From: Limnohabitans sp.
GTDB taxonomy: Bacteria; Pseudomonadota; Gammaproteobacteria; Burkholderiales; Burkholderiaceae_C
Assembly (NCBI GenBank): GCA_021300495.1
Contig: JAJTDK010000005.1
Location: 1-41,367 of the forward strand
Length of the DNA: 41,367 nucleotides
Direction: 5' to 3'
A program made the position numbers and the translations under genes. Below the pieces are notes generated by a model. The model was given only the letters and a program-made list of their open reading frames with translations, did not search any database and was not told where the DNA came from. Below are positions 9,134-33,771 of the stretch, one piece after another (position 1 is the first letter of the stretch; each line of letters begins with the position of its first letter).

Positions 9134-9203
9134 CGCGGGAGAGCCCTGGGTTACCCGCATGTTCCTGCCCCTTCATAGGGGGAGTCTCTAGGTCAGGTCA
9201 CCA

Positions 9204-10349: not shown

Positions 10350-10354
10350 GTTGC

Positions 10355-11233: not shown

Positions 11234-11264
11234 TTGCAAACTGACAACGACCGAAGGAATCAAC

Positions 11265-13079: not shown

Positions 13080-15497
13080 TCAAGCTGCTTCTTGAATCAC
13101 AACGTCGACAGGCACCCCCCATAACTCAGCATGCGCTTGCAGGTTTTGGATCTCTTGTTGTGCCCAATGGCCTCGGATGTAGCCCAAAGCCACCACAGTG
13201 CCGGCCTCATAACCCCAACCAGCCGAGGTGACCTCACCCACAAATTGACCTGCCACACTCAATGGTTCACCACCCCACAAATAATGGCGCGCATCTTTCA
13301 CAACAACTTTGACAAGCTTTTTCTCAGGTTTAAATTCTGCTTGTGCTTTTTTGGCCAGCAAGGCTTTCTTGCCTTTAAAGTCGCTTGTCTTATCGAGTTT
13401 CACACCCGCCCACAAACCCGCTTCAAAAGGTGTTTCATCGGGTCCTATTTCAGCACCCCATGCTCTCCTTTGACGCTCGATCCGCAGTGCATCCAACGCG
13501 TAGTAGCCAGCATCTCGCAAGCCTAGGTCTGCGCCTGCACTTTGCAGAGCCAGGTAAACATGACGTGTCATTTCAACAGGCACATACAACTCGTAGCCTG
13601 GGCCGCCCACGTAGCTCATGCGTGCTGCACGCACTTTGGCATAGCCCACATCTATTTCACGCGTGTGTGCAAATGGCAAAGCTTGCGGCGACAAGTCATC
13701 ATGGCAAAGCTTTGACATCAAAGCCAGAGAATTGGGGCCCATCAATGACAAGACACACAGCTGAGTAGAAACATCATCGATGTAGACCCGCATTTCTGGC
13801 GTGACATGGCGCTGCAGCCAATCTAAATCGCGCGTTGTTTGACCCGATCCTGTAATGACCATGAACCGATCAGCACTGAGTCGAATAACAGTGAGATCAC
13901 TTTCAAAGCCGCCTCTGTCGTTGAGCAGCGGGGTGTAAACCATTTTTCCAATGGCCACATTCATTTCGTTGGCGCACATGCTTTGCAAAAACGCCAATGC
14001 ATCTGCACCTCTGACCGAGATTTTTGAAAACGAACTTTGATCGTACAAAGCCACAGCCTCACGGGTGGCTTTTTGTTCAGCTTGCACCCAAGGTAACCAA
14101 TCGGGTGTGTCCAAGGTATCTCGCGCAGGCGGCGCACCTGCAGGTCGGAAATAGTTCGCGCGCTCCCAGCCATTTTTACTGCCAAACTCTGCGCCCTTCG
14201 CTGCCAAAACGTCATACAAAGGCGAGCAACGCAATGGCCGAACCGTCTGCAACTCTTGTCTAGGCCAACGCATGGCATAGTGCAGGCCCAGGGTCTCGGC
14301 GGTGCGTTCAGAGAGTGCCTTTCGATTGCCTGTAAATGCGCCAAACCTGCGCACATCGACATCCCACAAATCAACACTGGGTTCACCACCCACAATCCAC
14401 TCCGCCATCAAGCGCCCTGCACCACCAGAGTTGGCAATGCCTGCTGAATTGAAACCAGCACACACAAAATAGTTTCGAACTTCAGGTGCCTCACCCAAAA
14501 TAAAATTGCCATCGGGCGTGAAACTCTCAGGTCCATTGAGCAACATTTTGACTTTGGCTGTTTCCAAACAAGGCGTGCGGTGAATGGCGTTTTGCATCAA
14601 AATTTCAAACTGATCCCAATCCTCGCCCAGCAACTCAAATTGAAAAGTTGAAGGAATAGGGTGCACATTCCAAGGTTTGGCCACAGGCTCAAAGCCGCCC
14701 ATCACCAGACCACCCACTTCTTCTTTGTAGTAAATGTAGCCATCTGGGTCTCGCACAACGGGCCACATGGGATGGATGCCCTCTATCTTGTCGGTCACAA
14801 TGTAGAAATGCTCGGCAGAATAAAGCGGCACGTTGACACCGGCCAACTGACCAAATTGACGCGCCCATTGGCCCGCACAGTTCACCAAGATATCGCACTG
14901 AATGTCGCCTTGTTTGGTTTTCACACCCTGCACGCGACCTTCATTCAAGTCAACACCTGTGACTTCAATGTCCTCAAAAATTTTGATGCCATGCAGCCTT
15001 GCCCCTTTGGCCAAGGACATGCACAAATCAGCAGGATTGGCCTTGCCGTCTCCAGGAATCCAAATGCCACCTGCTAAGTCATCGGTTCGAAGCAAGGGTG
15101 CACGCTCACCCACCTCTTGTGGCGTGATTTCATGAACCTCCACACCAAAGCTTCTGGCCAAAGCAATTTGTTTTCGCAAAACTTTCATGCGCTCTGGCGT
15201 GCGCGCCACATTCACGCTGCCGCATTGTTTCCAACCTGTGGCTAAGCCCGTTTCTGCTTCTAGCGTTGAATAAAGTTCAATGCCGTACTTGCTCATGCGC
15301 GTCATGTTTCGATTAGGACGCATTTGACCCACCAAGCCAGCCGCATGCCAAGTGGTGCCACTGGTTAACTTGCCCTGCTCTAACAAGACCACATCGGTCT
15401 GACCCAATTTGGCCAAGTGATAAGCCACAGAACAGCCCGCAATGCCACCGCCTACGATGACAATTTTGGCCTGAGTTGGAAAGCTTTGTGTTGCCAT
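13080..15497 (-). CDS. FAD-dependent oxidoreductase fused to GcvT-like domain (dimethylglycine/sarcosine dehydrogenase-like)
   Basis: 805 aa; N-terminal FAD motif IVIVGGGIAGCSVAYHLAKLGQTDVVLLEQGKLTSGTTWHAAGLVG (HAAG flavinylation-like motif); C-terminal aminomethyltransferase-like region (GYYALDALRIERQRRAWGAEIGPDETPFEAGL). Confidence 0.9.
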   Translation of the reverse strand: MATQSFPTQAKIVIVGGGIAGCSVAYHLAKLGQTDVVLLEQGKLTSGTTWHAAGLVGQMRPNRNMTRMSKYGIELYSTLEAETGLATGWKQCGSVNVARTPERMKVLRKQIALARSFGVEVHEITPQEVGERAPLLRTDDLAGGIWIPGDGKANPADLCMSLAKGARLHGIKIFEDIEVTGVDLNEGRVQGVKTKQGDIQCDILVNCAGQWARQFGQLAGVNVPLYSAEHFYIVTDKIEGIHPMWPVVRDPDGYIYYKEEVGGLVMGGFEPVAKPWNVHPIPSTFQFELLGEDWDQFEILMQNAIHRTPCLETAKVKMLLNGPESFTPDGNFILGEAPEVRNYFVCAGFNSAGIANSGGAGRLMAEWIVGGEPSVDLWDVDVRRFGAFTGNRKALSERTAETLGLHYAMRWPRQELQTVRPLRCSPLYDVLAAKGAEFGSKNGWERANYFRPAGAPPARDTLDTPDWLPWVQAEQKATREAVALYDQSSFSKISVRGADALAFLQSMCANEMNVAIGKMVYTPLLNDRGGFESDLTVIRLSADRFMVITGSGQTTRDLDWLQRHVTPEMRVYIDDVSTQLCVLSLMGPNSLALMSKLCHDDLSPQALPFAHTREIDVGYAKVRAARMSYVGGPGYELYVPVEMTRHVYLALQSAGADLGLRDAGYYALDALRIERQRRAWGAEIGPDETPFEAGLWAGVKLDKTSDFKGKKALLAKKAQAEFKPEKKLVKVVVKDARHYLWGGEPLSVAGQFVGEVTSAGWGYEAGTVVALGYIRGHWAQQEIQNLQAHAELWGVPVDVVIQEAA

Positions 15498-15529
15498 GAA
15501 TGAGATCTCCTAATGCGTGTCCTCAACCA

Positions 15530-16372
15530 CTAACCCAAACGAAGTGCTGCAACGCCAGAAAGAATGGCCACAGTCCCTGCAATTCTTTGTCGAGTCCAAA
15601 CTTCTTTCAAAAACCAAGCGCCAATCAGCGCTGCAAAAAAAACCGATGTTTCTCGTAGCGCAGCCACCATGGCCACAGGCGCGACGGTCATGGCCCACAG
15701 TGCAATGGCGTAAGACCCAATGGAGGCAAATGCGCCACCTGATGCGACAGGCCAACGCTTGCGCACATAGGGCCAGACTTGCCCTTTGCGCTGCATGAAA
15801 ACCAAAATGGCAAACGGCCAGCCATCCAATACAAACAACATGCAGATGTATTGCACTACGTGGCCTGAAATGCGCGCGCCTTTGGCATCGATGACGGTGT
15901 AAATGGCAATCAGCACAGCATTGATCAAAGCAAACACGATGGCTTTGCGGTGAGTCCACCACTCGCGCGTAATGCCCAACAACAAAACACCGCCGCTGAT
16001 ACAAGCTACACCCAACCAAGCCAACGGTGTCAAGTCTTCACCGATGAATGCAAAGGATGTAAGTGCCACCAACATGGGCGCAGTACCCCGCATCAAAGGA
16101 TATGTGAGCCCCAGTTCACCATGACGATAGGCTCCGGCTAACGCAAAGTAATAACCGACGTGAACCACCAAGGAGCCCAAGATATAAGGCCAAGATTCTG
16201 CAGGCGGTGGGCCAACATACAAACAGACAGGAAGGGCCAACAGCGAGCACAGGACATGGATCAGGGCCGTGTCTAGGGTTTTGTCGGAGCTAGACTTCAC
16301 AAGCGCGTTCCAGCTGGCGTGAAGCAGTGCCCCAAAAAGGACCAATAACAAAACGGGCCAAGTCATGGCCAT
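15530..16372 (-). CDS. DMT-family transporter (EamA domain)
   Basis: MAMTWPVLLLVLFGALLHASWNALVKSSSDKTLDTALIHVLCSL..., EamA-like hydrophobic pattern. Confidence 0.85.
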   Translation of the reverse strand: MAMTWPVLLLVLFGALLHASWNALVKSSSDKTLDTALIHVLCSLLALPVCLYVGPPPAESWPYILGSLVVHVGYYFALAGAYRHGELGLTYPLMRGTAPMLVALTSFAFIGEDLTPLAWLGVACISGGVLLLGITREWWTHRKAIVFALINAVLIAIYTVIDAKGARISGHVVQYICMLFVLDGWPFAILVFMQRKGQVWPYVRKRWPVASGGAFASIGSYAIALWAMTVAPVAMVAALRETSVFFAALIGAWFLKEVWTRQRIAGTVAILSGVAALRLG

Positions 16373-16373
16373 C

Positions 16374-16925
16374 TCAGTCTTTCAACGCACAGCGTCTTGC
16401 AATTTGCATGTAATGGGAAAGTTCTGGCGTCTGAGTCTCTGGCTGTTTGGCCAAGTCATCCCAGAGTCTCAAACGAACTGCATCTGAAGCTCCGGGCTCT
16501 TCTATGAATTGTGCAGCTTCTTCTGCAGTAAAAATTCCACCTTGCAGTTTCAAGCTTCGCTTGGAGTCTTCAGACAAAGCACCATAGTATTCAGGACGCG
16601 TGGCGCACAAATATCGTTTGGCGTCCACATGACGCTGAACAACATCAATTACAGCTTCAGAGAAAAGTCCGCGCAAAAAGGGAACAACGCGGTATTGATG
16701 CACGTCATCGACACCCTGCATGCTGGGCGTTTCTCCCAAGTCATGCAGCAAATGCCCCAAGTCGTGCAGAAAAGCCGCCGTGACCAATTCGTCGCTAGCT
16801 TCCTCTTGCTCACCCAAGTGAGCTGACTGTAAAGCATGCTGAAGTTGTGTCACAGGCTCACCGCTGTACTGCTCATGCCCGCGTTGTTGAAACAACGCTT
16901 CGATGTCGTTAAGTGTCAAGGCCAT
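16374..16925 (-). CDS. phnZ: HD-domain protein of the phosphonate-degradation-associated family (PhnZ/TmpB-like mixed-valent diiron oxygenase)
   Basis: 183 aa; EQYSGEPVTQLQHALQSAHLGEQEEASDELVTAAFLHDLGHLLHD ... RHVDAKRYLCATRPEYYGALSEDSKRSLKLQGG ... RLWDDLAKQPE, matching my recollection of PhnZ proteins; operonic with phnA/phnY. Confidence 0.8.
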   Translation of the reverse strand: MALTLNDIEALFQQRGHEQYSGEPVTQLQHALQSAHLGEQEEASDELVTAAFLHDLGHLLHDLGETPSMQGVDDVHQYRVVPFLRGLFSEAVIDVVQRHVDAKRYLCATRPEYYGALSEDSKRSLKLQGGIFTAEEAAQFIEEPGASDAVRLRLWDDLAKQPETQTPELSHYMQIARRCALKD

Positions 16926-16951
16926 GGTACCAATATGCTCTCATTAATGAA

Positions 16952-18607
16952 TTAATCGGTTAAAAGATCAGGCTGTTTAAGCCGAGTGCTTGTCAGTGCA
17001 CCTGCTTGTTCCAAAATAGGATATGCAATGGAACAAATGTGCGAATTGATGCGTTTCAAATCGCTGATTAAATCAATGTGCAAAGAGCTGGTGCCAATAC
17101 TTTCAGGTGTGTTTTCCTGCAAGCGCGCCAAATGACGATTGGCGTATTCATGCTCTAGATTTCTAAATTGCACTTTTTGCTCCAACAGTGCTTCTGCATT
17201 ACGAACTCCACCCTCTAAGAAAACACTCATACCCAACTGCAAATTGGCCACCAAGCGTTGGTGCAAATCGTCGATTTCTGCAAAACCAGCTTCTGAGAAA
17301 TTTCGACCTTTGGCTATTTTTTTGTCTTCAATGTCTTGAAGCACTCGCTCAATGATGTCGCCCACTTGTTCCATATTGATGGCAAATGACATGATATCGG
17401 CCCAACGCTGTCCCTCTCTTTGCGACAAAGCCTCACGTGAAATTTGCGTCAAATAAAATTTGATAGCGGAATACAAATCATCCACACCATCGTCCATTTC
17501 ACGCAATTTAGCAGCCAGTAAAGCATCGTTGTTTTGAATCACTGGCACGATACCGCGCAACATTGTCTCCACCACATCAGCTTGGTGCAAAGCTTCACGC
17601 GCCGCACAGGAAATGGCCAAGGAAGGCGTTGATAAAGCTGTAGGGTCAAGATATTTGGGCTGAACTTTGTTGTTATCGACCTCAACGGAAGGCAAGTATT
17701 GGGTCAACAACTTACCAACTTTTCCCGTAAACATGATCATTGACATTGCAAGTAGCATATTGAACAAGAAATGAAAACTCACCACAGCATCAAACCCTAG
17801 GGCTTGAATATCGTCTGCAAAAGGTATGTACATACTTAAAAAAGGAATAGCCAGCGTACAACCAAGCGCTTTAAAGATTAAATTCCCCAAGGGCACACGC
17901 CGTACATCAGCAGATGATTTGGACATGGTTAAAAAAGCCAGTAAGCCACTGCCCAAATTGGCACCCAAGACCAAACTCAAGGCCATGGACATGGACACTA
18001 CTTGTGTATGGCACAGCGTTGCTGTCAATAGGACCATGGCCAAACTAGAATACGAGACGACCGTTAAAAGTGCACCAATCAAAATCAAAATAACTGGGTC
18101 GTTGGGCAAAACGCTGAGCAACACATGCATGCCATGCGACTGAGTAATAGGCGTTGTTGCTTCAACAATCAAGTGCAATGCCAGGGTCATCAAACCCAAA
18201 CCAATCGATACGCGACCCCAACGGCCCCACGTATTGTTTTGATTGGCAACAAACACCACTACGCCCAGCACAATCAACAAGGGAGACAACCAACTTAAAT
18301 CAAATGAGAACATTAAGGCCATCAAGCTGGTGCCGACATCAGCACCAAGCATCATGATGAGTGCCGTTGACGTGAGAAATATACCCTGCCCAACAAAAGA
18401 GCTCACAATCAAACAAGTTGCGGTACTAGATTGCAACAGGCTACTAACCCCCAAACCTGATACAAAAGCCAAAGCAGGCTTATTCATGCTGCTGGCCAAC
18501 AAATCTCGCAGAGAACCGCCTAAAACTCGCAAGATGCCTGTACGCACGGTGTGCGTGCCCCACACCAAAAGTGCAATGGCTGCCAGCAAGTTCAATAAGT
18601 TGTACAT
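16952..18607 (-). CDS. Na/Pi cotransporter family protein with C-terminal PhoU-like domain
   Basis: Na/Pi repeats SGLGVSSLLQSSTATCLIVSSFVGQG and GALLTVVSYSSLAMVLLTATL, then a soluble helical PhoU-like region. Start at 18607 (MYNLLNLLAAIALLVWGTHTVRTG). Confidence 0.9.
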   Translation of the reverse strand: MYNLLNLLAAIALLVWGTHTVRTGILRVLGGSLRDLLASSMNKPALAFVSGLGVSSLLQSSTATCLIVSSFVGQGIFLTSTALIMMLGADVGTSLMALMFSFDLSWLSPLLIVLGVVVFVANQNNTWGRWGRVSIGLGLMTLALHLIVEATTPITQSHGMHVLLSVLPNDPVILILIGALLTVVSYSSLAMVLLTATLCHTQVVSMSMALSLVLGANLGSGLLAFLTMSKSSADVRRVPLGNLIFKALGCTLAIPFLSMYIPFADDIQALGFDAVVSFHFLFNMLLAMSMIMFTGKVGKLLTQYLPSVEVDNNKVQPKYLDPTALSTPSLAISCAAREALHQADVVETMLRGIVPVIQNNDALLAAKLREMDDGVDDLYSAIKFYLTQISREALSQREGQRWADIMSFAINMEQVGDIIERVLQDIEDKKIAKGRNFSEAGFAEIDDLHQRLVANLQLGMSVFLEGGVRNAEALLEQKVQFRNLEHEYANRHLARLQENTPESIGTSSLHIDLISDLKRINSHICSIAYPILEQAGALTSTRLKQPDLLTD

Positions 18608-18611
18608 TCTT

Positions 18612-20069
18612 TCAAACCCAAGGGATTGAATAGGTTTTGATATTCGTAAAGCTCTTAATGGCTTCTTGCACTCCTTCTTTGTAGCCCAAGCCAGAATCCT
18701 TGATGCCGCCAAATGGCGTGAGTTCGAGTCGGTAGCCTGGCACCTCACGCACATTGACCGTGCCCATTTGAAGCTCATTCACAAACCGCACAATGTAGTC
18801 CATTCGATTGGTACAGACACCGCTAGAAAGACCATAGGCTGTACCATTGGCAATACGAATGGCCTCATCAATGTTCTTGAACTGAATGATGGGTGAAACA
18901 GGACCAAAGGTCTCCTCTTTCACAAGCATCATTTCGGGCGTTACTTGGTCCAAAACTGTAGGCGAATACAAGGCACCGTGGCGCTGGTTTCCGACTAACA
19001 AACGTGCGCCCTGTGCGATGGCCTCGTTGACGCGAGACTCAAAGAATTGGGCCGCCGCTTCATCAATCACAGTGCCCATGAGGTTCTCTAAATCGGCAGG
19101 ATCGCCATACGGCCACGCCTTGGTTTTTTGTACCACCAAATCAGTAAATTCAGCAGCTACCGATTGGTGCACCAACATGCGCTTGACAGCAGTACAACGC
19201 TGACCTGAATTTTTATATGACCCCTGAACAGCCAAGTTAGAAGCCTCTTCTAAATCAGCGTCTTCCATCACGATGAGGGGGTCGTTGCCACCCAACTCCA
19301 AGATAATGCGGCGATAGCCAGCTTTGTTTGCAATGTACTTGCCAATAGCAACACCACCGGTAAATGTAATGAGATCAACACAGGGGTGCGTCAACATCTC
19401 ATCGGCAATTTCTCTTGGATCGCCTGTAATCACACTCAGCATCTCTGGCGGCAAGCCAGCTTCGTACAAGAGGTCGGCAAAATAAATGGCCGAGAATGGC
19501 ACCTTCTCCGAAGGCTTCAAAACCATGCGGTTGTTGGTAGCCACGCTGGGAATCACTTTGTGTGCCACCTGATTCATGGGGTGATTGAATGGTGTGATGG
19601 CTGTGATCACGCCCAGCAAGGGCGCGCGCTGTGTATAAACCCGTCGCTGTTTGCCATGGTGCGTTAAGTCGCAACTGAAAATTTGCCCATCGTCTTTTAG
19701 CACTTCTTGCGCACCAAACAACAACACATCACTGACGCGACCAGCCTCATAAACGGCATCCTTGATGCACAAGCCAGCTTCTGCTGAAATGAGATTGGCA
19801 ATGTCATTCAAGTGATCTCGCACCAAGGCTGCTGCCTTGTTCAAAATGGCTGCTCTGTCGAACCTGGTCAATTGCGGTTTGTAGGCATGGGCCAAAGCAT
19901 AAGCCTGTCGCACCTCTTCCAACGTAGCCTTGGGCACAGTACCAATGCGCTCTGCCGAATAAGGATTGAACACCTCAATGGCACGATCTCTGCCAGCACC
20001 TACTTTTTGGCCGCCAATGCGCATGGCATCGAGTTGATGATCTCGGATAAATTGGGCAACTTGACTCAT
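18612..20069 (-). CDS. phnY: Phosphonoacetaldehyde dehydrogenase (PhnY-type aldehyde dehydrogenase)
   Basis: ALDH motifs (ELGGNDP, NSGQRCTAVKRM) and PhnY-like C-terminus FGGIKDSGLGYKEGVQEAIKSFTNIKTYSIPWV; overlaps the phnA coding end. Confidence 0.88.
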   Translation of the reverse strand: MSQVAQFIRDHQLDAMRIGGQKVGAGRDRAIEVFNPYSAERIGTVPKATLEEVRQAYALAHAYKPQLTRFDRAAILNKAAALVRDHLNDIANLISAEAGLCIKDAVYEAGRVSDVLLFGAQEVLKDDGQIFSCDLTHHGKQRRVYTQRAPLLGVITAITPFNHPMNQVAHKVIPSVATNNRMVLKPSEKVPFSAIYFADLLYEAGLPPEMLSVITGDPREIADEMLTHPCVDLITFTGGVAIGKYIANKAGYRRIILELGGNDPLIVMEDADLEEASNLAVQGSYKNSGQRCTAVKRMLVHQSVAAEFTDLVVQKTKAWPYGDPADLENLMGTVIDEAAAQFFESRVNEAIAQGARLLVGNQRHGALYSPTVLDQVTPEMMLVKEETFGPVSPIIQFKNIDEAIRIANGTAYGLSSGVCTNRMDYIVRFVNELQMGTVNVREVPGYRLELTPFGGIKDSGLGYKEGVQEAIKSFTNIKTYSIPWV

Positions 20070-20089
20070 GACAATCACCTTCTCAAACT

Positions 20090-22055
<1,966 letters not shown>

Positions 22056-22078
22056 GCAAAGAATTTGATCACAACTCA

Positions 22079-22098
22079 GTAAATTGTCAACAATTTAC
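22079..22098. promoter_or_regulatory. Candidate GntR operator: perfect 20-bp palindrome
   Basis: GTAAATTGT-CA-ACAATTTAC: 9-bp arms, 2-bp centre, between gntR and the divergent transporter gene; contains TTGT..ACAA typical of FadR-type operators. Confidence 0.65.
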
Positions 22099-22149
22099 AA
22101 AAAACAATTGACATTCAGTTATTCTTCGATTCCAATGATTTTCATGGGC

Positions 22150-22167
22150 TTGTCACATCGCTGTCAC
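22150..22167 (+). promoter_or_regulatory. Candidate Pho box (PhoB site)
   Basis: TTGTCAC-ATCG-CTGTCAC: two 7-bp repeats with 11-bp period, close to the PhoB consensus CTGTCAT-N4-CTGTCAT, 45 bp upstream of the AEP-binding-protein ATG. Confidence 0.6.
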
Positions 22168-22212
22168 AGCTCTGGTGGAAAGTTATCGTTTTTAACTTGA
22201 TAAGGATGACGA

Positions 22213-23244
22213 ATGCGCGCACTTTACAAATCTGCACTCTTGATAGGCGGTCTACTGCTAGGCTCAATGGCTTTGGCTCAAAAAACGCAGCTGTTGGTCT
22301 ACACAGCTTTGGAAGTGGATCAACTGAAGGCTTATCAAGAGGGTTTCAACAAAGTCCACCCCGAGATTGAACTCAAATGGGTTCGCGATTCAACCGGCGT
22401 CATCACTGCCAAACTTTTGGCGGAAAAAGCCAACCCACAGGCAGACGCTGTGATGGGCGTAGCTGCCACCAGCTTGGCCTTGATGAAGAAAAACGGCATG
22501 CTCGAGCCATTTGCGCCCCTGAATTTGGACGCCATCATGCCCCAGTACCGCGACAAAGCCAATCCACCTGCTTGGTGGGGCATGGATGTCTGGGGCGCGA
22601 CCATTTGCTTCAACACAGTCGAAGCCAAAAAACGCAATATTCCAAAACCAGAAACTTGGAAAGACCTCACCAAGCCTGAATACAAAGGCCAAGTGGTCAT
22701 GCCCAACCCCGCTTCCAGTGGTACAGGTTATTTTGATGTCATCGCATGGCTCACTTTGTTTGGTGACCAAAACGGCAAAGGCGGCGGTTGGAAGTACATG
22801 GACGGCCTGCATGAAAACATTGCGCAATACACGCACTCCGGATCGAAACCTTGCAACATGGCCGCCAGCGGAGAATATGTTGTAGGAATTTCATTTGAGT
22901 ACCGCGCCAATGCCAACAAAGCCAAGGGCGCTCCTATCGACTTGGTGTTCCCTAAAGAAGGTTTAGGTTGGGACCTTGAGTCGTTCGCCATTCACAAAGG
23001 CACCAAGAAATTGGATGCTGCCAAGAAACTGGCCAACTGGGCTTCAAGCAAAGACGCCATGAAACTTTATGGCAAAAACTTTGCGATCACCGCTCACCCT
23101 GGCGTGGCAGAACCATTGGCCAACGTACCCAAAGACTATGAGTCACGCTTGGTCAAATTGGACTTTGAATATGCTGCTGAGCAACGCGAGCGTATCTTGG
23201 CCGAATGGAACACTCGCTACAACGGCAAATCTGAAAAGCGCTAA
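22213..23244 (+). CDS. phnS: Putative 2-aminoethylphosphonate ABC transporter substrate-binding protein
   Basis: Signal peptide MRALYKSALLIGGLLLGSMALAQ; iron/AEP-type SBP fold motifs (LLVYTALEVDQLKAYQEGF, MPNPASSGTGYFDVIAWL); first gene of the transporter cluster with phnW. Confidence 0.85.
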   Translation: MRALYKSALLIGGLLLGSMALAQKTQLLVYTALEVDQLKAYQEGFNKVHPEIELKWVRDSTGVITAKLLAEKANPQADAVMGVAATSLALMKKNGMLEPFAPLNLDAIMPQYRDKANPPAWWGMDVWGATICFNTVEAKKRNIPKPETWKDLTKPEYKGQVVMPNPASSGTGYFDVIAWLTLFGDQNGKGGGWKYMDGLHENIAQYTHSGSKPCNMAASGEYVVGISFEYRANANKAKGAPIDLVFPKEGLGWDLESFAIHKGTKKLDAAKKLANWASSKDAMKLYGKNFAITAHPGVAEPLANVPKDYESRLVKLDFEYAAEQRERILAEWNTRYNGKSEKR

Positions 23245-23256
23245 ATTCATTTAAAC

Positions 23257-23289
23257 GGCCGCCTGGCATCGCCAAGGCGGCCTTTTTTG
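23257..23289 (+). terminator. Intrinsic terminator between substrate-binding-protein and ATPase genes
   Basis: GGCCGCCTGGCATCGCCAAGGCGGCCTTTTTT: strong GC hairpin followed by T6. Confidence 0.9.
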
Positions 23290-23299
23290 TTGGTCACTC

Positions 23300-24370: not shown

Positions 24371-24388
24371 AACAGACTTGACCCTCGC

Positions 24389-26086
24389 ATGACGTACGTT
24401 TTATCCCAAGTGACACAGCGCAAGCATTGGAGCGATTGGATTGGATTCGCGGGTTTGGCCTTGGTTCTCTTCATGTTGTTGGCGTTTTTAGCAGCACCTC
24501 TGCTGGCCATTCTTCTGCAAGCGGCCCAAGATGATCAGGGCCAATTTGTTGGCCTGCGCAACTTTTCTAGTTACCTGCAAACACCCTCTTTGTTGCAGAG
24601 TCTTTGGAACAGTATTTGGGTTTCTTCTTTGGTCACGTTCATTGTGGTGCCATTGGCTTTTGTCTTTGCATACGCCCTGACCAGAAGCTGCATCCCTGGC
24701 AAAACCATTTTCCGAGCCATCAGCCTCATTCCACTTTTAGCACCCTCCTTGCTTTCGGCCATTTCACTCATCTATTGGTTTGGCAACCAAGGGGTCTTGA
24801 AAGACGCCATGCAAGCTATCGGGATTGATCAAATTTATGGCGCACCAGGCGTGGTGATCGCAGAATGTTTCGCCGTTTTTCCGCATGTGCTCATGATTTT
24901 GGTCACCGCCCTCACGCTGGCCGATGCACGCCTTTACGAGGCGGCCGATGCCCTGGGCACCAGCGCTCAGAGAAAGTTTTTCACCATCACATTGCCAGGC
25001 GCCAAGTACGGTTTAATCTCGGCTTCCTTGGTCAGCTTTACTTTGGTCATGACTGATTTTGGCATTCCTAAAGTCATCGGTGGCAACTTCAACATGATGG
25101 CCACTGATATTTTCAAGTTGGTCATTGGTCAACAAGATTTTTCCAGAGGTTCGGTGGTGGCATTGCTGCTTTTGTCGCCAGCCGTCTTAAGCTTTGGTGT
25201 AGACCGCTATGTAAGTGCTCGCCAAACGGCCATGCTAAGCGCAAGAGCCGTGGCCTTTTTACCCAAACCCGACGCGCGTCATGACCTGCTCATGATGTCT
25301 TTCTGCACCTTCATTGCATGCCTTATGCTGGCCATGTTGGGCATGGCTGTTTTTGCATCTTTCGCCAGTTTTTGGCCATACAACCTAACACCTAGCCTGA
25401 TTCATTACAAGCTGGGTTTGATCGATGGCGATGTAGGCCAAGGATTTATCAACAGCTTGAAAATGGCATCGGGTACCGCCGTCTTTGGTACCTTGCTGGT
25501 GTTTGTCACAGCCTATTTGCTTGAAAAAACCAAAGGCATGAACTTGGTTCGCGCACCACTTCATATGTTGGCCGTGATTCCTATGGCAGTGCCAGGATTG
25601 GTCTTAGGACTGGGTTATATCTTTTTCTTCAACATGCCTAGCAACCCATTGCACGGCATGTACCAAAGCATGACCCTGCTAACCCTTTGCACCATTGTTC
25701 ACTTTTACACCACAGGGCATTTAACGGCCACCACGGCACTGAAATCTTTGGATGCCGAATTTGAATCGGTCAGCGCTTCACTCAAAGTGCCTTTTTACAA
25801 AACCTTCTGGCGCGTGACTCTGCCCATTTGTACACCTGCCATGGTGGACATCGCACGGTATTTTTTCATCAATGCCATGACCACTATCTCAGCGGTGGTG
25901 TTTTTGTATTCTCCAGAGAATAAAGTGGCTGCCATTGCTATTTTGAATTTAGATGAAGCCGGTGACATAGGCGCGGCTGCGGCCATGGCTGTTTTAATTG
26001 CACTTATTTCAGCTTGTGCCACTGTATTTTTTGCTTGGCTCAGCTGGCTAGTAGACAAACGAACGCAAGCTTGGCGTCGCCGATAA
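24389..26086 (+). CDS. phnU: Putative 2-aminoethylphosphonate ABC transporter permease (two fused BPD-type halves)
   Basis: 565 aa, about 12 hydrophobic segments, two EAA-type loops ([25 protein letters not shown] and [25 protein letters not shown]). Confidence 0.85.
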
Positions 26087-26145
26087 TTTTTGATTCTGAT
26101 CTGATACATTTTTTAAATCCCTTTGAGACAAGAGACACATTCACC

Positions 26146-27261
26146 ATGCAACGCGAAGCCATTCTTCTCACACCCGGCCCCTTAACCACCACCCTGCGCA
26201 CCAAGCTGGCCATGCTGCGAGATTGGGGGTCATGGGACAGTGAGTTCATTGCCATGACTGCACGGGTTCGCAAAAGCTTGCTGAACATTGTTCACGGACA
26301 CGAAACCCATGTGGTGGTGCCACTTCAAGGCAGCGGTACCTTTAGCGTGGAAGCTGCAGTTGCCACACTGGTCCCCTCAAGCGGCCACATTTTAGTTTTG
26401 GACAATGGCGCCTATTGCAAAAGAGCAGCCAAACTGTCCACCATGATGGGGCGCAAAACCACCGTTGTGCCAACACCAGAAGATCAATGCGTCTCGCCCA
26501 GTGCACTAGAGGCCCTGCTCCAAAAAGACGCCAGCATTACGCATGTGGTGCTGATTCACTGCGAAACAGGGGCGGGGGTTTTAAACCCTCTCCACGACAT
26601 TGCCAAAGTTTGCGAGAAGCACAGCAAAGGTTTGATTGTGGACGCCATGAGTTCATTTGCCGCGCTGGAAATTGACGCACGCACCACACGCTTTGACGCC
26701 CTCATTGCCGCCAGTGGCAAATGCCTAGAAGGTGTACCCGGTATGGGCTTTGTGTTTATTCGCAAAGCCATTTTGGACAACTGCGCTGGCAACAATTCTT
26801 CCTTGGCCATGGACTTACACGACCAATACGTGTACATGGAAAAAACCGGTCAATGGCGCTTTACACCACCGACCCATGTGATGGTGGCCTTGGCAGAAGC
26901 CATTCAACAGTTTGAAGAAGAAGGTGGACAGCCCGCCCGTTTGAAGCGTTACCAAAGCAATTGCAAAACTTTGATTGAAGGCATGTCCGCATTAGGCTTC
27001 AAACCCTATTTAGACCCTGCAGTTCAAGCGCCGATCATTGTGACCTTCCATGCACCGGCTGATGCCAACTACGAATTCAGAAAATTTTATGAAGCTGCCA
27101 AGAAGCATGGCTTTATTTTGTACCCAGGCAAGCTGACTGAAATTGAAACATTTCGTGTGGGCTGCATTGGTGCCATTGGCCCCATTGAGATGCAACAGGC
27201 CGTGCATGCGGTGGCGCTTACATTGAAAGAGTTGGGCATCGCAAGCGGTGCTCCTGCTTGA
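26146..27261 (+). CDS. phnW: 2-aminoethylphosphonate--pyruvate transaminase
   Basis: [49 protein letters not shown]...[18 protein letters not shown]...[18 protein letters not shown] (PLP Lys region); typical PhnW. Confidence 0.93.
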
Positions 27262-27305
27262 ATCTTGTAGTGCATTGATTTTTTAAAATTTTTAAAGGAC
27301 AGAGC

Positions 27306-28679
27306 ATGGCCACCTCCAAAGTACACCCTGCACTTAAAGCAGTTGAAAAAAGCGGTGCTCAAAAAGTCAAAGTAGCCGTGAGCGACATCGACGGCATTTT
27401 GCGCGGCAAGTACTTGCACATTGACAAATTCAAAGGTGCGGCAGAGCCTTACCCTGCAGGCGGTTTTGGCTTTTGTGATGTGGTGTTTGGCTGGGACTCG
27501 TCAGATCAGTGCTATGACAACACCTCCGTCACGGGCTGGCAACATGGCTTTCCAGATGCCTTGGCGCGTTTGGATTTAGACACCGCGCGCAATGTGCCGT
27601 GGGACAACAACGTACCATTTTTCATTGGCGAATTTATTAATGCCGATGGCACACCCCATCCACTTTGTCCGCGGCAAACTTTGAAAAAGGTTTTAAAGCG
27701 TGCCGAAAAAATGGGCGTCAACCCCATGTGTGGCATGGAGTTTGAATGGTTCAACTTTTTAGAGAACTCTCACTCCTGGGAAAGTAAAAAAGGTGTAGGG
27801 CCCACACCACTCACACCCGGCATGTTTGGTTATTCATTGCTGCGCATGAACCAAAATCGCGAATTCTTCAATGCCATTCAAGACGAAATGCTGCAGTTTG
27901 GCGTGCCCATTGAAGGCCTGCACACAGAAACAGGCCCTGGAGTTTACGAAGCTGCCATTGCTTTCAGCGATGCGCTGACACAAGCCGACCGCGCCATTTT
28001 GTTCAAAACAGGCACCAAAGAAATTGGTGCGCGTTTTGGCATCATGCCCAGTTTCATGGCCAAGTGGAATGCCGCTTATCCAGGATGCAGTGGCCACATT
28101 CACCAAAGCTTGAGTGACGGCAAAAAGAATTTGTTCGCTGACGCCAAAGGCCGTCATGGCATGAGCAAAATGTTTGAAAGCTATTTGGCTGGCCAAGTGG
28201 CTCACCTCATGGAATTTGCTCCCATGTTCTGGCCCACCATTAACAGCTACAAGCGCTTGGTCGATGGCTTTTGGGCACCGGTCAAACCTACATGGGGTGT
28301 GGACAATCGCACCGCCAGCTTCCGCGTGATTGCCGGCTCACCCAAATCAACCCGCCTAGAAACCCGTTGCCCTGGCGCCGACGTCAACCCCTACTTGGCC
28401 ATGGCTGCAGTCATTGCTGCAGGCTTAGATGGCGTTGAAAAAGGCATGAAGCTAAGCGCTCCCCCCATTCACGGTACCAACGGCGGTGCTGAGAACATTC
28501 CCCGTGCACCCCGCACACTGATTGAAACCACGCGCAATTTCCAGCAGTCCAAAGTGGCGCGCGATTGGTTAGGCGATACATTTGTGGATCACTTTGCCGC
28601 CACCCGCGAATGGGAATGGCGCCAATGGTTAGATGGCGTAACCGACTGGGAACTCAAACGTTATTTTGAAATTATTTAA
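27306..28679 (+). CDS. Glutamine synthetase family protein (gamma-glutamyl-amine ligase-like)
   Basis: 457 aa; GS catalytic patterns (GMEFEWF, HTETGPGVYEAAIAFSDALTQADRAILFKTGTKEIGARFGIMPSFMAK, GCSGHIHQSL, NRTASFRV, ETRCPGADVNPYLAMAAVIAAGLDGVEKG). Confidence 0.9.
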   Translation: MATSKVHPALKAVEKSGAQKVKVAVSDIDGILRGKYLHIDKFKGAAEPYPAGGFGFCDVVFGWDSSDQCYDNTSVTGWQHGFPDALARLDLDTARNVPWDNNVPFFIGEFINADGTPHPLCPRQTLKKVLKRAEKMGVNPMCGMEFEWFNFLENSHSWESKKGVGPTPLTPGMFGYSLLRMNQNREFFNAIQDEMLQFGVPIEGLHTETGPGVYEAAIAFSDALTQADRAILFKTGTKEIGARFGIMPSFMAKWNAAYPGCSGHIHQSLSDGKKNLFADAKGRHGMSKMFESYLAGQVAHLMEFAPMFWPTINSYKRLVDGFWAPVKPTWGVDNRTASFRVIAGSPKSTRLETRCPGADVNPYLAMAAVIAAGLDGVEKGMKLSAPPIHGTNGGAENIPRAPRTLIETTRNFQQSKVARDWLGDTFVDHFAATREWEWRQWLDGVTDWELKRYFEII

Positions 28680-28710
28680 TTGAACCCTACAGATCAAACT
28701 GGACATTGAT

Positions 28711-29844
28711 ATGAGCATTGAAAAATTTTCCTTCCCAACACCCATCCACTTTGGCGTTGGTTCACGCAAGTTAGTCGGCTCGCATTTGAAAAATTTAGGC
28801 TTCAAGCGTCCCCTCATCGTCACCGACAAAGCCATGGCCGATTTGCCTCTCATGGCTGAGTTCATCCGTCACTTGGATGGCCTTGAGGTGTCTGTTTATG
28901 CCGGCGTGCATGGCAACCCCACCGCCTCACAAGTCACAGCGGGTGGCGCAGCTTTCAAAGCGCACAATGCCGATTGCGTCATTGGCTTAGGTGGTGGCGC
29001 ATCGCTTGACGTGGCCAAAGTGGTGGGCTTGGCTGCCACCCACGATGGCCCCATTTTGGAATATGCATGGGATCACCCCAAGGTGCGAAGCATTACAGGC
29101 ACCCTACCCTATTTTGTGGCATTGCCCACCACCTCTGGCACTGGCTCTGAAGTGGGCCGCTCTAGTGTGGTCAGCGAAGATGACACACACCAAAAGCGCG
29201 TCATCTTTCACCCCAAGTTATTGGCTCAAACCGTGTTTGCCGATCCAGAACTCACAGTGGGCTTGCCTGGCAAGATCACTGCAGCCACTGGCATGGACGC
29301 CCTGACTCACAACATCGAAAGCTATTTGTCACCGGCCTACCATCCCTTGTGCGATGGCATTGCCTTGGAAGGCACTCGCATTGGGGCTGCAGCATTGCAC
29401 ACAGCTGTGCATGAACCCAGCAACCTCAAGGCCCGCAGCGACATGATGATGTCGTCCATGATGGGCGCCATTGCCTTCCAAAAAGATTTGGGTGCTGTGC
29501 ACTCCTGCGCCCACGCACTGGGTGCAGTGGTCGACATGCACCATGGCTTGGCCAACGCGCTCATGATCGATGTGGTGATGGCTTGGAACTACGAAGCCGT
29601 GCCTGAAAAATTCAACGAACTTGCGCACGTTTGCAATGTCAAAGGCGGCGGCAGTGCCTTTGTGGCTTGGCTCAAAGAATTGAAAGCGTCGATTGGCATC
29701 ACGGGTACTTTGTCTTCGCACGGTGTTAAACCCGAACACATGGCGCGTTTGGTTGAAATTGCTACGGCCGATATTTGCCATCAAACCAACCCGCGCCCTT
29801 GCACATCAGCCGATTTCGAGAAGCTGTTCAAGGCTGCCATGTAA
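28711..29844 (+). CDS. Iron-containing alcohol dehydrogenase
   Basis: GLGGGASLDVAKVVG, LPTTSGTGSEVGRSSVV, metal-binding HSCAHALGAVVDMHHGLANAL. Confidence 0.93.
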   Translation: MSIEKFSFPTPIHFGVGSRKLVGSHLKNLGFKRPLIVTDKAMADLPLMAEFIRHLDGLEVSVYAGVHGNPTASQVTAGGAAFKAHNADCVIGLGGGASLDVAKVVGLAATHDGPILEYAWDHPKVRSITGTLPYFVALPTTSGTGSEVGRSSVVSEDDTHQKRVIFHPKLLAQTVFADPELTVGLPGKITAATGMDALTHNIESYLSPAYHPLCDGIALEGTRIGAAALHTAVHEPSNLKARSDMMMSSMMGAIAFQKDLGAVHSCAHALGAVVDMHHGLANALMIDVVMAWNYEAVPEKFNELAHVCNVKGGGSAFVAWLKELKASIGITGTLSSHGVKPEHMARLVEIATADICHQTNPRPCTSADFEKLFKAAM

Positions 29845-29861
29845 TTTTGGATGAGGTCATC

Positions 29862-30647
29862 ATGTCTTCTAATTCCAAACGTCTGAAAATTGGCGTCTCT
29901 GCTTGCTTCTTTCACCCTGACCACGAACGCGTGATCTTCAAGGGCAAGACGCTTCAATACGTTGAGCAGTCGGTGATGCATTGGGTCATGTCGCAAGGCG
30001 ACTTGGCGGTCATGATTCCTTCCCCCGAAGGCGAAACCCAAGTGGGTGATGCGCAAATTGCCGACTACGCCCAATGGCTGGATGGCGTGGTGCTCATGGG
30101 CGGCAGCGATGTGTGGCCAGGCAGCTACGGCGAAGAAGTGATGGACCCAAGATGGACAGGCGACCGTGTGCGAGATGCTTACGAAAAGAAGCTGATTGAA
30201 TCTTTTGTAGCAGCTGGCAAACCAGTGCTGGGCGTATGCCGCGGCATGCAAATGATCAATGTGGCGTTTGGTGGCACTTTGTACCAAGACATTGCCACGC
30301 AAAGACCTGAAGCCCTGATGCACCGCGACGGCGTGAAGTACGACCTCAATTTGCATGAGGTGCAATTCGAACCCAATAGCACACTGTCTAAGCTATTGGG
30401 CGGCGCCACCAAAGCCAAAGTCAACAGCATTCACCATCAAGGCGTGAAAGATTTGGCCGCCAACTTTGTAGTGGAAGCTTTCTGCCCTCACGACCACATT
30501 CCAGAAGCCATTCGATTACAAGGCGACGCTTATGTGGCCGCCGTTCAGTGGCATCCTGAATTCCATAAATCGACCTTAGGCACCTTGGATGACTCACCCA
30601 TCCTGACTGATTTTTTAAATGCAGCACGCAAGAAGCAACCGGCTTAG
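29862..30647 (+). CDS. Gamma-glutamyl-gamma-aminobutyrate hydrolase-like class I glutamine amidotransferase (PuuD-like, peptidase C26)
   Basis: LGVCRGMQMINVAFGGTLYQDI (nucleophile Cys), VNSIHHQGVKDL, VQWHPEF. Confidence 0.9.
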   Translation: MSSNSKRLKIGVSACFFHPDHERVIFKGKTLQYVEQSVMHWVMSQGDLAVMIPSPEGETQVGDAQIADYAQWLDGVVLMGGSDVWPGSYGEEVMDPRWTGDRVRDAYEKKLIESFVAAGKPVLGVCRGMQMINVAFGGTLYQDIATQRPEALMHRDGVKYDLNLHEVQFEPNSTLSKLLGGATKAKVNSIHHQGVKDLAANFVVEAFCPHDHIPEAIRLQGDAYVAAVQWHPEFHKSTLGTLDDSPILTDFLNAARKKQPA

Positions 30648-30689
30648 GCTTCCTCTCTTCAAAAAAACACCGAACCACATTGGACTTGT

Positions 30690-32075
30690 ATGAAATTGCT
30701 TGACGTCGTCAACCCAGCCACCGATGAACTGATCACTCAACTGCGCATCGACGATGGCGCAGCTGTGGCCATCAAGGCCCAAAAAGCACGCAACGCACAA
30801 GCCGCATGGGCCGCTACGCCTTTGGCAGACCGCATGGCATGCATTCAGCGCTTTCGAGGTTTGGTTGAAGCGCAACTTGAAGACTTGGCTAAAACCATGA
30901 CCCAAGAAACCGGCAAGCCGCTGGCCCACTCGCGCAATGAGTTGAACGGCTTCTTAGGTCGCATCGACTTCTTCTTGTCAGAAGCCGAAGCAGTCCTAAA
31001 AACTGAAACGGTTTACAAACAAGACGGCATGTGCGAGCAAATTCAGCACATTCCCCTTGGCTTGATTGGCAACATTTCTGCATGGAACTACCCGTGGTTT
31101 GTGGGCGGCAATGTGTTTGTACCTGGCCTGCTCATGGGCAACGCCATTTTGTACAAACCGTCAGAATTCGCAGCCATGAGCGGCATGGCCATGGCCCGTT
31201 TGCTGCACGAGGCTGGCATTCCCCAAGATGTGTTTGCCACGCTCATTGGTGCCGCTGACACTGGCAATGCTTTGCTTGCACAACAACTCGATGGTATGTT
31301 TTTCACAGGCTCATTGGCCACGGGACAGCACATTGCCAACGTCATGGGGCCGCGTATGACCAAGCTCCAATTGGAATTGGGCGGCAAAGATCCCACCTAT
31401 GTGTGTGCCGATGCCGACCCTGTGGCGGCCGCACAATCCTTGGCAGATGGTGCCATGTACAACGCCGGTCAAAGCTGCTGCTCGGTCGAGCGTATTTATG
31501 TGCATGCCAGCATTCATGACAAATTCGTGGAAGCACTGGTCGACACGGTTCGGAGTTTCAAAATGGGCGATCCGTTGGCCGCGGACACCTACTTGGGCCC
31601 GCTTACACGCGCACCTCAACTGAAAGTTTTGGAAGCTCAAATTGCCGATGCCAAAGCCAAAGGCGCTCGTTGTTTGCTGGGTGGGCAACGCAGTAAAGGC
31701 CCCATGGGCGGCAAAGGCAATTGGTTTGAAGCCACGGTGTTTGACAACGTGAACCACAGCATGTCCCTCATGCGCGACGAAAGTTTTGGACCCATCATTG
31801 GCATTCAAAAAGTCAATGACGATGCTGAGGCCATTCGCCTCATGAACGACACTGCCTATGGCCTCACCGCTGGCGTTTACACACCCAACGAACAACATGC
31901 GCGTGAAGTGCTTTCTCAAGTTCGTGCTGGCTCTGTTTATTGGAATTGCTGCGACCGCGTCAGCCCACGCTTGCCTTGGAGTGGCTATGGTCACTCAGGC
32001 ATTGGCCTGACTTTGTCTCGCGAAGGCCTAGCCACTTTCACACGCCCCAAAGCTTGGCACTTGCGCAGCAACTGA
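30690..32075 (+). CDS. NAD(P)-dependent aldehyde dehydrogenase
   Basis: GNISAWNYPW, LELGGKDPTYV, NAGQSCCSVERIYV, ESFGPIIGI. Confidence 0.93.
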   Translation: MKLLDVVNPATDELITQLRIDDGAAVAIKAQKARNAQAAWAATPLADRMACIQRFRGLVEAQLEDLAKTMTQETGKPLAHSRNELNGFLGRIDFFLSEAEAVLKTETVYKQDGMCEQIQHIPLGLIGNISAWNYPWFVGGNVFVPGLLMGNAILYKPSEFAAMSGMAMARLLHEAGIPQDVFATLIGAADTGNALLAQQLDGMFFTGSLATGQHIANVMGPRMTKLQLELGGKDPTYVCADADPVAAAQSLADGAMYNAGQSCCSVERIYVHASIHDKFVEALVDTVRSFKMGDPLAADTYLGPLTRAPQLKVLEAQIADAKAKGARCLLGGQRSKGPMGGKGNWFEATVFDNVNHSMSLMRDESFGPIIGIQKVNDDAEAIRLMNDTAYGLTAGVYTPNEQHAREVLSQVRAGSVYWNCCDRVSPRLPWSGYGHSGIGLTLSREGLATFTRPKAWHLRSN

Positions 32076-32076
32076 C

Positions 32077-32736
32077 ATGCGCTTGGCTTTGTTTGACTTA
32101 GACCATACGCTGCTCAATGGCGACAGCGATCAGTTGTGGTGTGATTTCCTCATCGACAAAGGCTTGCTCGACAAGGCCATCTTCTCGGCCAAAAACGAAG
32201 CCATGGCGCGCGATTACAAATCTGGCGCAGTCAATGTGCAAGCGTTTTGTGAGTTTTACATTGGCACCCTCACACTTCACTCGCCTTCTGAATGGGAACC
32301 ACTGCGTCAAGAATTTTTAAGCGAGTGGGTGGCGCCCAAATTGTGCGCTGGTGGCAAAGCACAAATCAAAGCTCACCAAGCCAAAGGCGATCGAGTGGTC
32401 ATGACCACCGCCACCAATCGGTTCATCACAGAATTGACGGCCAAACACTTAGGCGTGCAGGACCTCATTGCCACAGAGGCCGAATTGCAAAACGGTTTGT
32501 TCACCGGAAAAACTGCAGGCGTGTTAAACATGCGTGAAGGCAAAGTTACGCGCCTTAAGATGTGGTGCCATGAACAGCAATTGGACTGGCCTCAGCTTGA
32601 AACATGGGGCTACAGCGATTCCATCAACGACCTGCCCTTGCTAGAAGCCGTCACGCACGCCACCGTGACACAGGGCGATGTAAAGTTGAGAACAGAAGCC
32701 GCCAAGCACGGCTGGCCCCAAATTGAGTGGTTTTAA
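32077..32736 (+). CDS. HAD-superfamily hydrolase (subfamily IB, phosphoserine-phosphatase-like)
   Basis: FDLDHTLLNGDSD motif I, VVMTTATNRF motif II, GYSDSINDLPLLEAV motif IV; 1-bp gap after the ALDH stop. Confidence 0.88.
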   Translation: MRLALFDLDHTLLNGDSDQLWCDFLIDKGLLDKAIFSAKNEAMARDYKSGAVNVQAFCEFYIGTLTLHSPSEWEPLRQEFLSEWVAPKLCAGGKAQIKAHQAKGDRVVMTTATNRFITELTAKHLGVQDLIATEAELQNGLFTGKTAGVLNMREGKVTRLKMWCHEQQLDWPQLETWGYSDSINDLPLLEAVTHATVTQGDVKLRTEAAKHGWPQIEWF

Positions 32737-32760
32737 CTTTGTAGCCAAAGCAGGATTCAC

Positions 32761-33771
32761 ATGACGAGCACTGTATTCACCGACATTGACTGGGACAAAG
32801 ACGGCAAGCAAATTGGCACCCTCAACTTGCCCCACTCTCCCGACGACGATGCATGGGGCGTGATTCCGTTTCCCGCCGCCTCCATTAAAAATGGCAACGG
32901 CCCAGTGGTGGTGGTTACCGGCGCAGTACATGGCGACGAGTACGAGGGCCCCATCGTTATTTCGGAGTTAATGCGCAACATCGAAGCCCACGAAGTCAAC
33001 GGGCAATTGATTCTGCTCCCTACCTTCAATGCGCCAGCATTGAAAGCTGGGCGACGCACATCCCCCATCGATCAATTGAACCTGAACCGTGTTTTTCCAG
33101 GCGATGACTACGGCCTGCCGACGCAGCAAATAGCGCGCTATGTCACCGACCACCTCTTTAGCAAGGCAAATTTCTACATCGACCTGCATGCGGGAGGTCG
33201 GTCTTTGTTTATCCAGCCAAGCGCTCATGTGGTCATGGCCGATGGCATGGCTGCAGAACTCATACAAGCGAATGCGCGCTTAGCGGAAGCATTTGGCGTG
33301 GCCATGACGGTTCAGACCAGCAACATGGGCGACTACAGAACATCAGCTGGTTATGTCACCTTCAAAGGCATTCCCATGTTGGCTGCCGAGATGGGCATGG
33401 GCGGCTGGGCTACAGCAGACTCTGTTCGGGCAACACGCGAGGCCACACACCGAGTGCTCAAGCACACGGGGGTCTTGCCAAACATTGAAACCTGTCCCGG
33501 TGAAAAAACACAATGGACACGCATTCACGGCACTTCAGCCTATGTCTTTGCACCCATGGATGGCTATTTTGAAAGACACTTCGCATTAGGCGATGACATT
33601 CAAAAAGGGCAATTGGCCGGTTTAATGCACCACCTCGATCGACCCAGCCTCAAACCCGAGCCTGTGTACTTTCAATCAAGCGGCACGCTCTACGCGCATG
33701 GATTGATAGGACATGTTCGTGCAGGGCAAAATTTAGCAGTCTTGGTTGAAAAGCTTGAATCGCCTGTTTAA
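32761..33771 (+). CDS. Succinylglutamate desuccinylase/aspartoacylase-family (M14) deacylase
   Basis: VVVTGAVHGDEYEGPIV (H-x-x-E zinc site), NLNRVFPG, FYIDLHAGG. Confidence 0.88.
   Translation: MTSTVFTDIDWDKDGKQIGTLNLPHSPDDDAWGVIPFPAASIKNGNGPVVVVTGAVHGDEYEGPIVISELMRNIEAHEVNGQLILLPTFNAPALKAGRRTSPIDQLNLNRVFPGDDYGLPTQQIARYVTDHLFSKANFYIDLHAGGRSLFIQPSAHVVMADGMAAELIQANARLAEAFGVAMTVQTSNMGDYRTSAGYVTFKGIPMLAAEMGMGGWATADSVRATREATHRVLKHTGVLPNIETCPGEKTQWTRIHGTSAYVFAPMDGYFERHFALGDDIQKGQLAGLMHHLDRPSLKPEPVYFQSSGTLYAHGLIGHVRAGQNLAVLVEKLESPV

Follow-up and report, generated by a model that had tools for sequence, protein, structure and literature searches.

The 41,367-nucleotide contig JAJTDK010000005.1 of Limnohabitans sp. 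(assembly GCA_021300495.1) carries a divergent block of phn genes in which the PhnW-PhnY-PhnA pathway for aminoethylphosphonate (AEP) is joined to a module of four genes. These encode a glutamine synthetase (GS)-like ligase, an iron-dependent alcohol dehydrogenase (Fe-ADH), a PuuD-like hydrolase and an aldehyde dehydrogenase (ALDH). The contig (C28 of a 2.43-Mb genome that is 86% complete), taken at its full length, is referred to below as the window. We propose that the locus is probably one PhnR-controlled regulon that scavenges two-carbon amino compounds, AEP and ethanolamine. The proposal draws on gene content, conservation, linkage, shared operators and the replacement of the module by eutBC in relatives, all of which were directly observed.

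An initial annotation, made from the sequence alone, had described a packed, divergent block of 17 genes. We found all 17 open reading frames (ORFs) with the positions and strands it gave, as well as the 157-bp region between phnR and phnS from which the two arms diverge. Judged by likely starts, the gaps between genes are 32, 1, 26, 4, 20 and 13 bp in the minus arm and 55, 18, 59, 44, 31, 17, 42, 1 and 24 bp in the plus arm. The last plus-arm gene, for an M14 deacylase, had also been counted as part of the block. We reject it as a member and regard it as a recent neighbour, because it was seen in a single relative (locus L122, the closest and near-identical to the window), and in L123 a Nudix gene directly follows the HAD phosphatase gene with no M14 gene between. 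The conserved block therefore comprises 16 genes (13080-32736) and ends at HAD. Nor is the gene order an accident of binning or assembly: it is repeated in loci L122-L124, which come from independent metagenome-assembled genomes and whose PhnS proteins are 94-97% identical.

PhnW, PhnY and PhnA are encoded together, and all three passed NCBIfam equivalog cut-offs, as did PhnS2, PhnT2, PhnU2 and PhnR_burk, so that the genes of the AEP core are firmly identified. PhnW also scored above the cut-offs of TIGR02326 and TIGR03301 and has the lysine (K192) of the ASGK motif. The PhnSTU transporter would import AEP-like compounds, and PhnW, PhnY and PhnA would convert AEP to acetate and inorganic phosphate (Pi). 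No NCBIfam equivalog cut-off was passed by GS, Fe-ADH, PuuD, ALDH, HAD or M14. Function for the first five was therefore assigned from context and residues, and we infer the substrates of all accessory genes.

Linkage was surveyed across the family, for which 151 genomes were used, with neighbourhoods mapped by tblastn. Orthologs had at least 77% identity for GS (77-84% in 26 other family genomes) and at least 66% for FAD-GcvT, a minus-arm flavoprotein. We also made a PhnS-anchored scan of 80 named loci, those nearest to the query. PhnA was present in 32 of the 151 genomes and a GS ortholog in 27, of which 20 also had PhnA (p=2e-11 by a Fisher test, which ignores phylogeny). In 17 of these 20 a single contig carries both GS and PhnA, about 10 kb apart at most. 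As for the other three, the contig of genome G056 ends inside GS after phnW, the genes of G113 are split, and in G102 PhnA is on a different contig from phnSTUW-GS. All 19 genomes with a FAD-GcvT ortholog were PhnA-positive (Fisher p=5e-16). Of the phnYA-type loci, 32 had a right flank of 8.5 kb or more; 20 of these carried GS, three eutB, four a convergent ALDH-PuuD module and five neither; the convergent linkage was found in other Burkholderiales (L180, L183, L185, L186). The same block order recurs in about twenty related genera, so the pairing of phn genes with the GS module is a real metabolic unit and not chance adjacency. These results favour the earlier suggestion of a composite system rather than a plain phnWAY cluster, since both GS and FAD-GcvT occur mostly with phn genes.

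Substrate of the ligase module

The GS-like ligase scored below the GlnA cut-offs and has Trp (DGFWAP) at the position of the flap Glu of true GS (PGYEAP), so it is not a true glutamine synthetase. In the true enzyme the flap Glu guards the ammonium site. Fe-ADH follows GS in most loci, and the PuuD-like hydrolase has intact CRG nucleophile and WHPE motifs. A ligase, an alcohol dehydrogenase, an aldehyde dehydrogenase and a gamma-glutamyl hydrolase, the four enzymes of a gamma-glutamylethanolamide pathway, are thus all encoded. The same four steps were proposed for ethanolamine in the Streptomyces coelicolor GlnA4 pathway, which ends in glycine and glutamate (PMC6529630; PMC9397018). In the window, the ligase would join ethanolamine to glutamate, Fe-ADH and then ALDH would oxidise the alcohol of the glutamylated ethanolamine to a carboxylate, and the hydrolase would release glycine and glutamate, for a net conversion of ethanolamine to glycine.

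Two other identities were rejected: PsrA for Fe-ADH (TIGR03405, 146 against a cut-off of 424) and a Puu putrescine enzyme for GS (GGputSyn, 169 bits against 650, in a module with neither PuuB oxidase nor transaminase). A distant Fe-ADH (24-26% identical to that of the window, perhaps of PsrA type) lies between phnA and phnY in second phnA-phnY clusters, which have another ABC transporter (L102 in G043, L103 in G135, L104 in G086 and L109 in G117); in G043 and G135 the second cluster coexists with the composite block. Several genera have a gene for SBP_bac_5, a peptide-type ABC binding protein, between GS and Fe-ADH, and others a GNAT acetyltransferase gene there; insertions of these kinds were seen in L058/L059 (G006), L068/L069 (G101), L060 (G047), L151, L157 and L163.

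Context points to ethanolamine. The exact slot between phnW and HAD is filled by eutB and eutC in L131 (Rubrivivax pictus), L133 and L141, and L158 (Hylemonella gracilis) has eutBC and an ethanolamine-permease homolog near phnSTU. On the PhnS tree the swap from GS module to eutBC occurred at least twice, L141 being the sister of GS-carrying L145 and L158 of GS-carrying L153. An ethanolamine-permease-like gene adjoins GS in G100 and G041 (TIGR00908, 373 and 360 bits, cut-off 382), and GS in G063 has a neighbour that closely resembles these two. Across the family, eutB was found in 43 genomes and the module in 27, with G040 the only overlap (1/27 against 42/124, p=0.0008); eutB was not found in the window's genome, which is 86% complete. 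From the eutBC replacement, the permease and the avoidance of eutB, the best reading of the module is a gamma-glutamyl pathway from ethanolamine to glycine.

The initial annotation had already taken the tail of the plus arm for a gamma-glutamyl-amine pathway. It was right about the kind of pathway; the most likely substrate is now ethanolamine itself rather than an amine derived from an N-substituted phosphonate. A related alternative, which we consider unlikely, is that the module acts on another phosphonate-derived amine, such as methylamine from N-methyl-AEP or an amino-alcohol phosphonate, as an auxiliary to phosphonate breakdown. Linkage to phn genes and the shared operator would fit, as would the production of methylamine from N-methyl-AEP by phn-cluster FAD oxidases (PMC10590968), but an alcohol and an aldehyde dehydrogenase would be superfluous for methylamine, and the eutBC in the same slot, the permease homologs beside GS and the occurrence of the module without phn genes also speak against it. 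We likewise give little credence to a module that uses the same chemistry to degrade a different short amino alcohol or a diamine (alaninol, aminopropanol, putrescine). The GGputSyn and PuuD models do match, although far below cut-off, and G040 has the module with a different APC permease plus eutB. Against this, the module has no Puu oxidase or aminotransferase, Fe-ADH implies an alcohol, and the enzyme that replaces the module, EutBC, acts on ethanolamine.

The shared control region

Both arms are predicted to be transcribed from the phnR-phnS region, which contains a 22-bp palindrome, AGTAAATTGTCAACAATTTACA, presumably the PhnR operator. About 47 of the 57 phnR-phnS regions retain its core, ATTGTCAACAAT, which has a single exact match in the 2.43-Mb genome, at the window operator. 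The core ATTGTYRACAAT also precedes other GntR/FCD genes beside apparent urate-type genes in L214 (G131) and L215 (G049), which suggests that related FCD regulators share the core motif. Because the 12-bp core is common to other GntR genes, we used a 22-bp position weight matrix (PWM), trained on 40 distinct operators, in a scan over 2.7 Mb of loci. The top match of the whole scan (36.8 bits) was not in the training set; it lies ahead of the GS module that is detached in G040, at a distance of 78 bp, with a phnR ortholog and an APC permease gene on the other side. In G113 (L213), a PhnR-type operator (30.8 bits) lies about 30 bp upstream of a detached ortholog of the sodium/phosphate cotransporter gene (NaPi). 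Extra sites precede EamA or phnX (L129, L136), pbfA (L149) and an aminophosphonate oxidoreductase gene (L190). GS modules with no operator nearby (G028, G101, G097, G041, G098) belong to genomes with no close PhnR ortholog, and G111 has neither PhnR nor an operator site. The operator is conserved at the divergent promoter and stands before the detached GS module and NaPi gene as well, as expected of a PhnR (TIGR03338) regulon; binding of the operator by PhnR and operon transcription are predicted.

G040 is a natural case of a split regulon (L046/L047, L224). One of its two PhnR paralogs accompanies the GS module and APC permease, the second a phnX-type cluster (PhnHD, PhnSTU, FAD, PhnX) with a weaker operator, and eutBC lies on a third contig. 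In L205 (G010) a tandem duplication of about 3.5 kb, possibly an assembly artefact, contains a 201-amino acid (aa) ORF with an upstream palindrome (2273-2878 and 5813-6418).

The right arm also has a Pho-box-like site, TTGTCACATCGCTGTCAC. The match is unremarkable in the window alone, and the case for it lies in enrichment: when up to two mismatches are allowed, 24 of the 57 orthologous regions contain such a site, facing phnS in 22 of them, compared with 17 of 1200 random windows and 7 of 2280 shuffles. The right arm, including the ethanolamine module, may thus respond to both substrate and phosphate limitation.

Several observations weigh against a single AEP and ethanolamine regulon. Seven family genomes have the module without phnYA, and in five it lies away from phnYA and without PhnR and is thus separable. 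Most phn clusters outside this part of the Burkholderiales lack it, and phylogeny is not accounted for in the association tests. An operator was looked for before the detached FAD-GcvT genes of G144, G119 and G111 and not found. The core was rejected as a PhnR-specific mark, being shared by unrelated GntR genes. The ethanolamine-permease homologs fall just below the curated cut-off, and the joint presence of eutB and the module in G040, with its different permease, implies that the amine may differ there. The module's occurrence without phnYA or PhnR would also suit mere adjacency, in which two unrelated operons, not co-regulated, happen to be neighbours in one lineage. We regard that explanation as largely refuted and very improbable, given the same order in about 20 genera, the replacement in the same slot, the convergent linkage in other Burkholderiales and the operator before a detached module.

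Accessory genes, block limits and neighbours

The features of the block are listed in Table 1.

Table 1. Genes and control sites of the block and the adjoining M14 gene, with the match or score for each (bits where given).
Feature	Position	Strand	Basis
FAD-GcvT (FAD-DAO + FAO_M + GcvT + GcvT_C), 805 aa	13080..15497	-	Pfam; dimethylglycine-dehydrogenase type
EamA-family permease	15530..16372	-	Best match TIGR03340 ("phosphonate utilization associated"), 235, cut-off 288
Phn-HD di-iron oxygenase (PhnZ/TmpB family)	16374..16925	-	TIGR03276, over hypothetical-equivalog cut-off
NaPi, Na/Pi cotransporter with PhoU domain	16952..18607	-	TIGR00704, over hypothetical-equivalog cut-off
phnY, phosphonoacetaldehyde dehydrogenase	18612..20069	-	TIGR03250, 849 bits, cut-off 636; alternative start TTG 20093
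phnA, phosphonoacetate hydrolase	20090..21307	-	TIGR02335, 585 bits, cut-off 408
phnR, GntR/FCD regulator	21321..22055	-	TIGR03338 (PhnR_burk), 276 bits, cut-off 272
Presumed PhnR operator, 22-bp palindrome	22078..22099		PWM 31.9 bits; core at 22083-22094
Pho-box-like site	22150..22167	+	One mismatch to CTGTCAYN4CTGTCAY; faces phnS
phnS2, AEP ABC transporter binding protein	22213..23244	+	TIGR03261, 485 bits, cut-off 393
phnT2, ABC ATPase	23300..24370	+	TIGR03265, 491 bits, cut-off 458
phnU2, fused ABC permease	24389..26086	+	TIGR03262, 780 bits, cut-off 593
phnW, AEP-pyruvate transaminase	26146..27261	+	NF010006, 563 bits, cut-off 296
GS-like ligase, proposed gamma-glutamylethanolamide synthetase	27306..28679	+	Below all GS and GGputSyn cut-offs
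Fe-ADH, proposed gamma-glutamylethanolamide dehydrogenase	28711..29844	+	Pfam Fe-ADH
PuuD-like class-I amidotransferase-fold hydrolase, proposed gamma-glutamylglycine hydrolase	29862..30647	+	Peptidase_C26
ALDH, proposed gamma-glutamyl-aminoacetaldehyde dehydrogenase	30690..32075	+	Aldedh, 434 bits; conserved in module
HAD-IB phosphatase, proposed O-phosphoethanolamine phosphatase	32077..32736	+	NF052360, 232 bits, cut-off 280
M14/AstE-AspA deacylase	32761-33771	+	DoeB-like, 232, cut-off 403

The nearest solved relatives of FAD-GcvT are dimethylglycine dehydrogenases; with 805 aa and GcvT domains it differs from the single-domain DAO proteins of the Pbf clades (PbfB-PbfD). FAD enzymes of phn clusters oxidise N-methyl-AEP, giving methylamine (PMC10590968), and for this reason FAD-GcvT most likely has a corresponding role in which the methyl group goes to folate. 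We propose that it is an N-methyl(amino)phosphonate demethylase, probably passing the N-methyl groups to methylene-tetrahydrofolate. Mutual exclusion with other phn-cluster FAD oxidoreductases supports this: FAD-GcvT was found in 18 loci and TIGR03329/TIGR03364 proteins, which may correspond to PbfB and PbfC, in 11, with none shared (p=0.01).

The best Protein Data Bank matches of Phn-HD are TmpB and PhnZ, and the aligned residues are kept, namely the His/Asp ligands of the HD di-iron site and the substrate Tyr and Glu. Among the 17 genes there is no 2-oxoglutarate dioxygenase that could be a PhnY* or TmpA partner hydroxylase. The HD gene and pbfA were found in 30 and 8 loci with none shared (p=0.002), in agreement with a published survey in which a phnZ-like gene was present in 32% of phnWAY clusters and never together with pbfA (PMC8154272). 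Both proteins are thought to act on hydroxylated AEP ((R)-HAEP), and this exclusion supports our proposal that Phn-HD probably converts (R)-HAEP to glycine and Pi. NaPi would probably export or balance the Pi released. The EamA gene occurs in nearly all related loci, including beside GS modules without PhnA.

HAD is a diverged paralog of histidinol-phosphatase. The other copy in the genome passes the model that HAD fails (282; L203). In many loci HAD comes after the ethanolamine genes (eutBC included) or after phnU/phnW, and phnX-type clusters have it too. As histidinol phosphate contains the O-phosphoethanolamine skeleton, a phosphoethanolamine phosphatase is our tentative assignment. O-phosphoethanolamine is the ester counterpart of AEP. 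It is possible, though doubtful at present, that the locus serves general aminoethyl-phosphorus scavenging, with PhnSTU importing O-phosphoethanolamine too, HAD splitting it into ethanolamine and Pi, and the ethanolamine then being consumed by the GS module or EutBC. If so, it would be clear why HAD keeps its place after the ethanolamine genes when these are swapped, and why a Pho-box-like site stands on an ethanolamine pathway.

A Nudix gene (DUF4743-like; 34509-35375 in the window) recurs near phn blocks in many loci (L123, L126, L136, L137, L159, L162, L180, L182, L183, L185, L186), with varying orientation and 29-83% identity; it may be functionally tied to these blocks or just a frequent neighbour. 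To the left (1114-12125) lie unrelated genes for a LysR/PBP-type regulator, a TRAP transporter (DctP/M/Q), DXS, a polyprenyl synthase, a Rieske dioxygenase, a second EamA permease and a rhodanese. An Rfam search of the window gave zero matches. Its promoter and terminator scan was uninformative, with fewer promoters than in shuffles and an excess of terminators, mostly intragenic.

Comparison with known systems

Work on phosphonate catabolism usually centres on phosphorus. A conserved regulon for AEP and ethanolamine, with B12-free and B12-dependent routes swapped in one slot, would suggest that for these bacteria C-P and C-O-P headgroups, from phosphonolipid and phosphatidylethanolamine debris, form one nutrient class. 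It would also give a testable function to an uncharacterised GS-like family and to the HAD phosphatase that recurs in phn clusters, as well as a defined candidate operator for PhnR. The parts are of known kinds in a new combination, and their coupling in one regulon is apparently unreported. In the literature searched, which covered few subscription journals, no paper brought ethanolamine ammonia-lyase together either with phnW and aminoethylphosphonate or with phosphonoacetate hydrolase, and none combined glutamine synthetase, phnW and iron-containing alcohol dehydrogenase.

The block shares phnW, phnY, phnA, an AEP ABC transporter and a phnZ-like gene with the hydrolytic phnWAY (phnWYA) pathway (PMC8154272), to which it adds GS-FeADH-PuuD-ALDH (eutBC in relatives), HAD, FAD-GcvT, NaPi and one control region. 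With the gamma-glutamylethanolamide pathway of S. coelicolor (GlnA4, SCO1611, 1612, 1615; PMC6529630), also proposed for Chromohalobacter salexigens, it shares the four chemical steps and, in relatives of the window, an ethanolamine-permease gene beside the ligase. However, the hydrolase of the window is of PuuD/C26 type and that of S. coelicolor of formylglutamate-amidohydrolase type, and the module lies in a phosphonate operon presumably under PhnR, whereas the S. coelicolor genes are under EpuRI. Short eutBC-eat operons are comparable in that some relatives have eutBC where the window has the GS module; they differ in that the eutBC route uses B12 and yields acetaldehyde and ammonia, and eutBC is absent from the window's genome (86% complete). 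Finally, the Pbf FAD oxidoreductases (PMC10590968) are, like FAD-GcvT, flavin enzymes tied to AEP clusters, but FAD-GcvT has FAO_M and GcvT folate domains and for that reason likely demethylates with transfer to tetrahydrofolate rather than release of methylamine.

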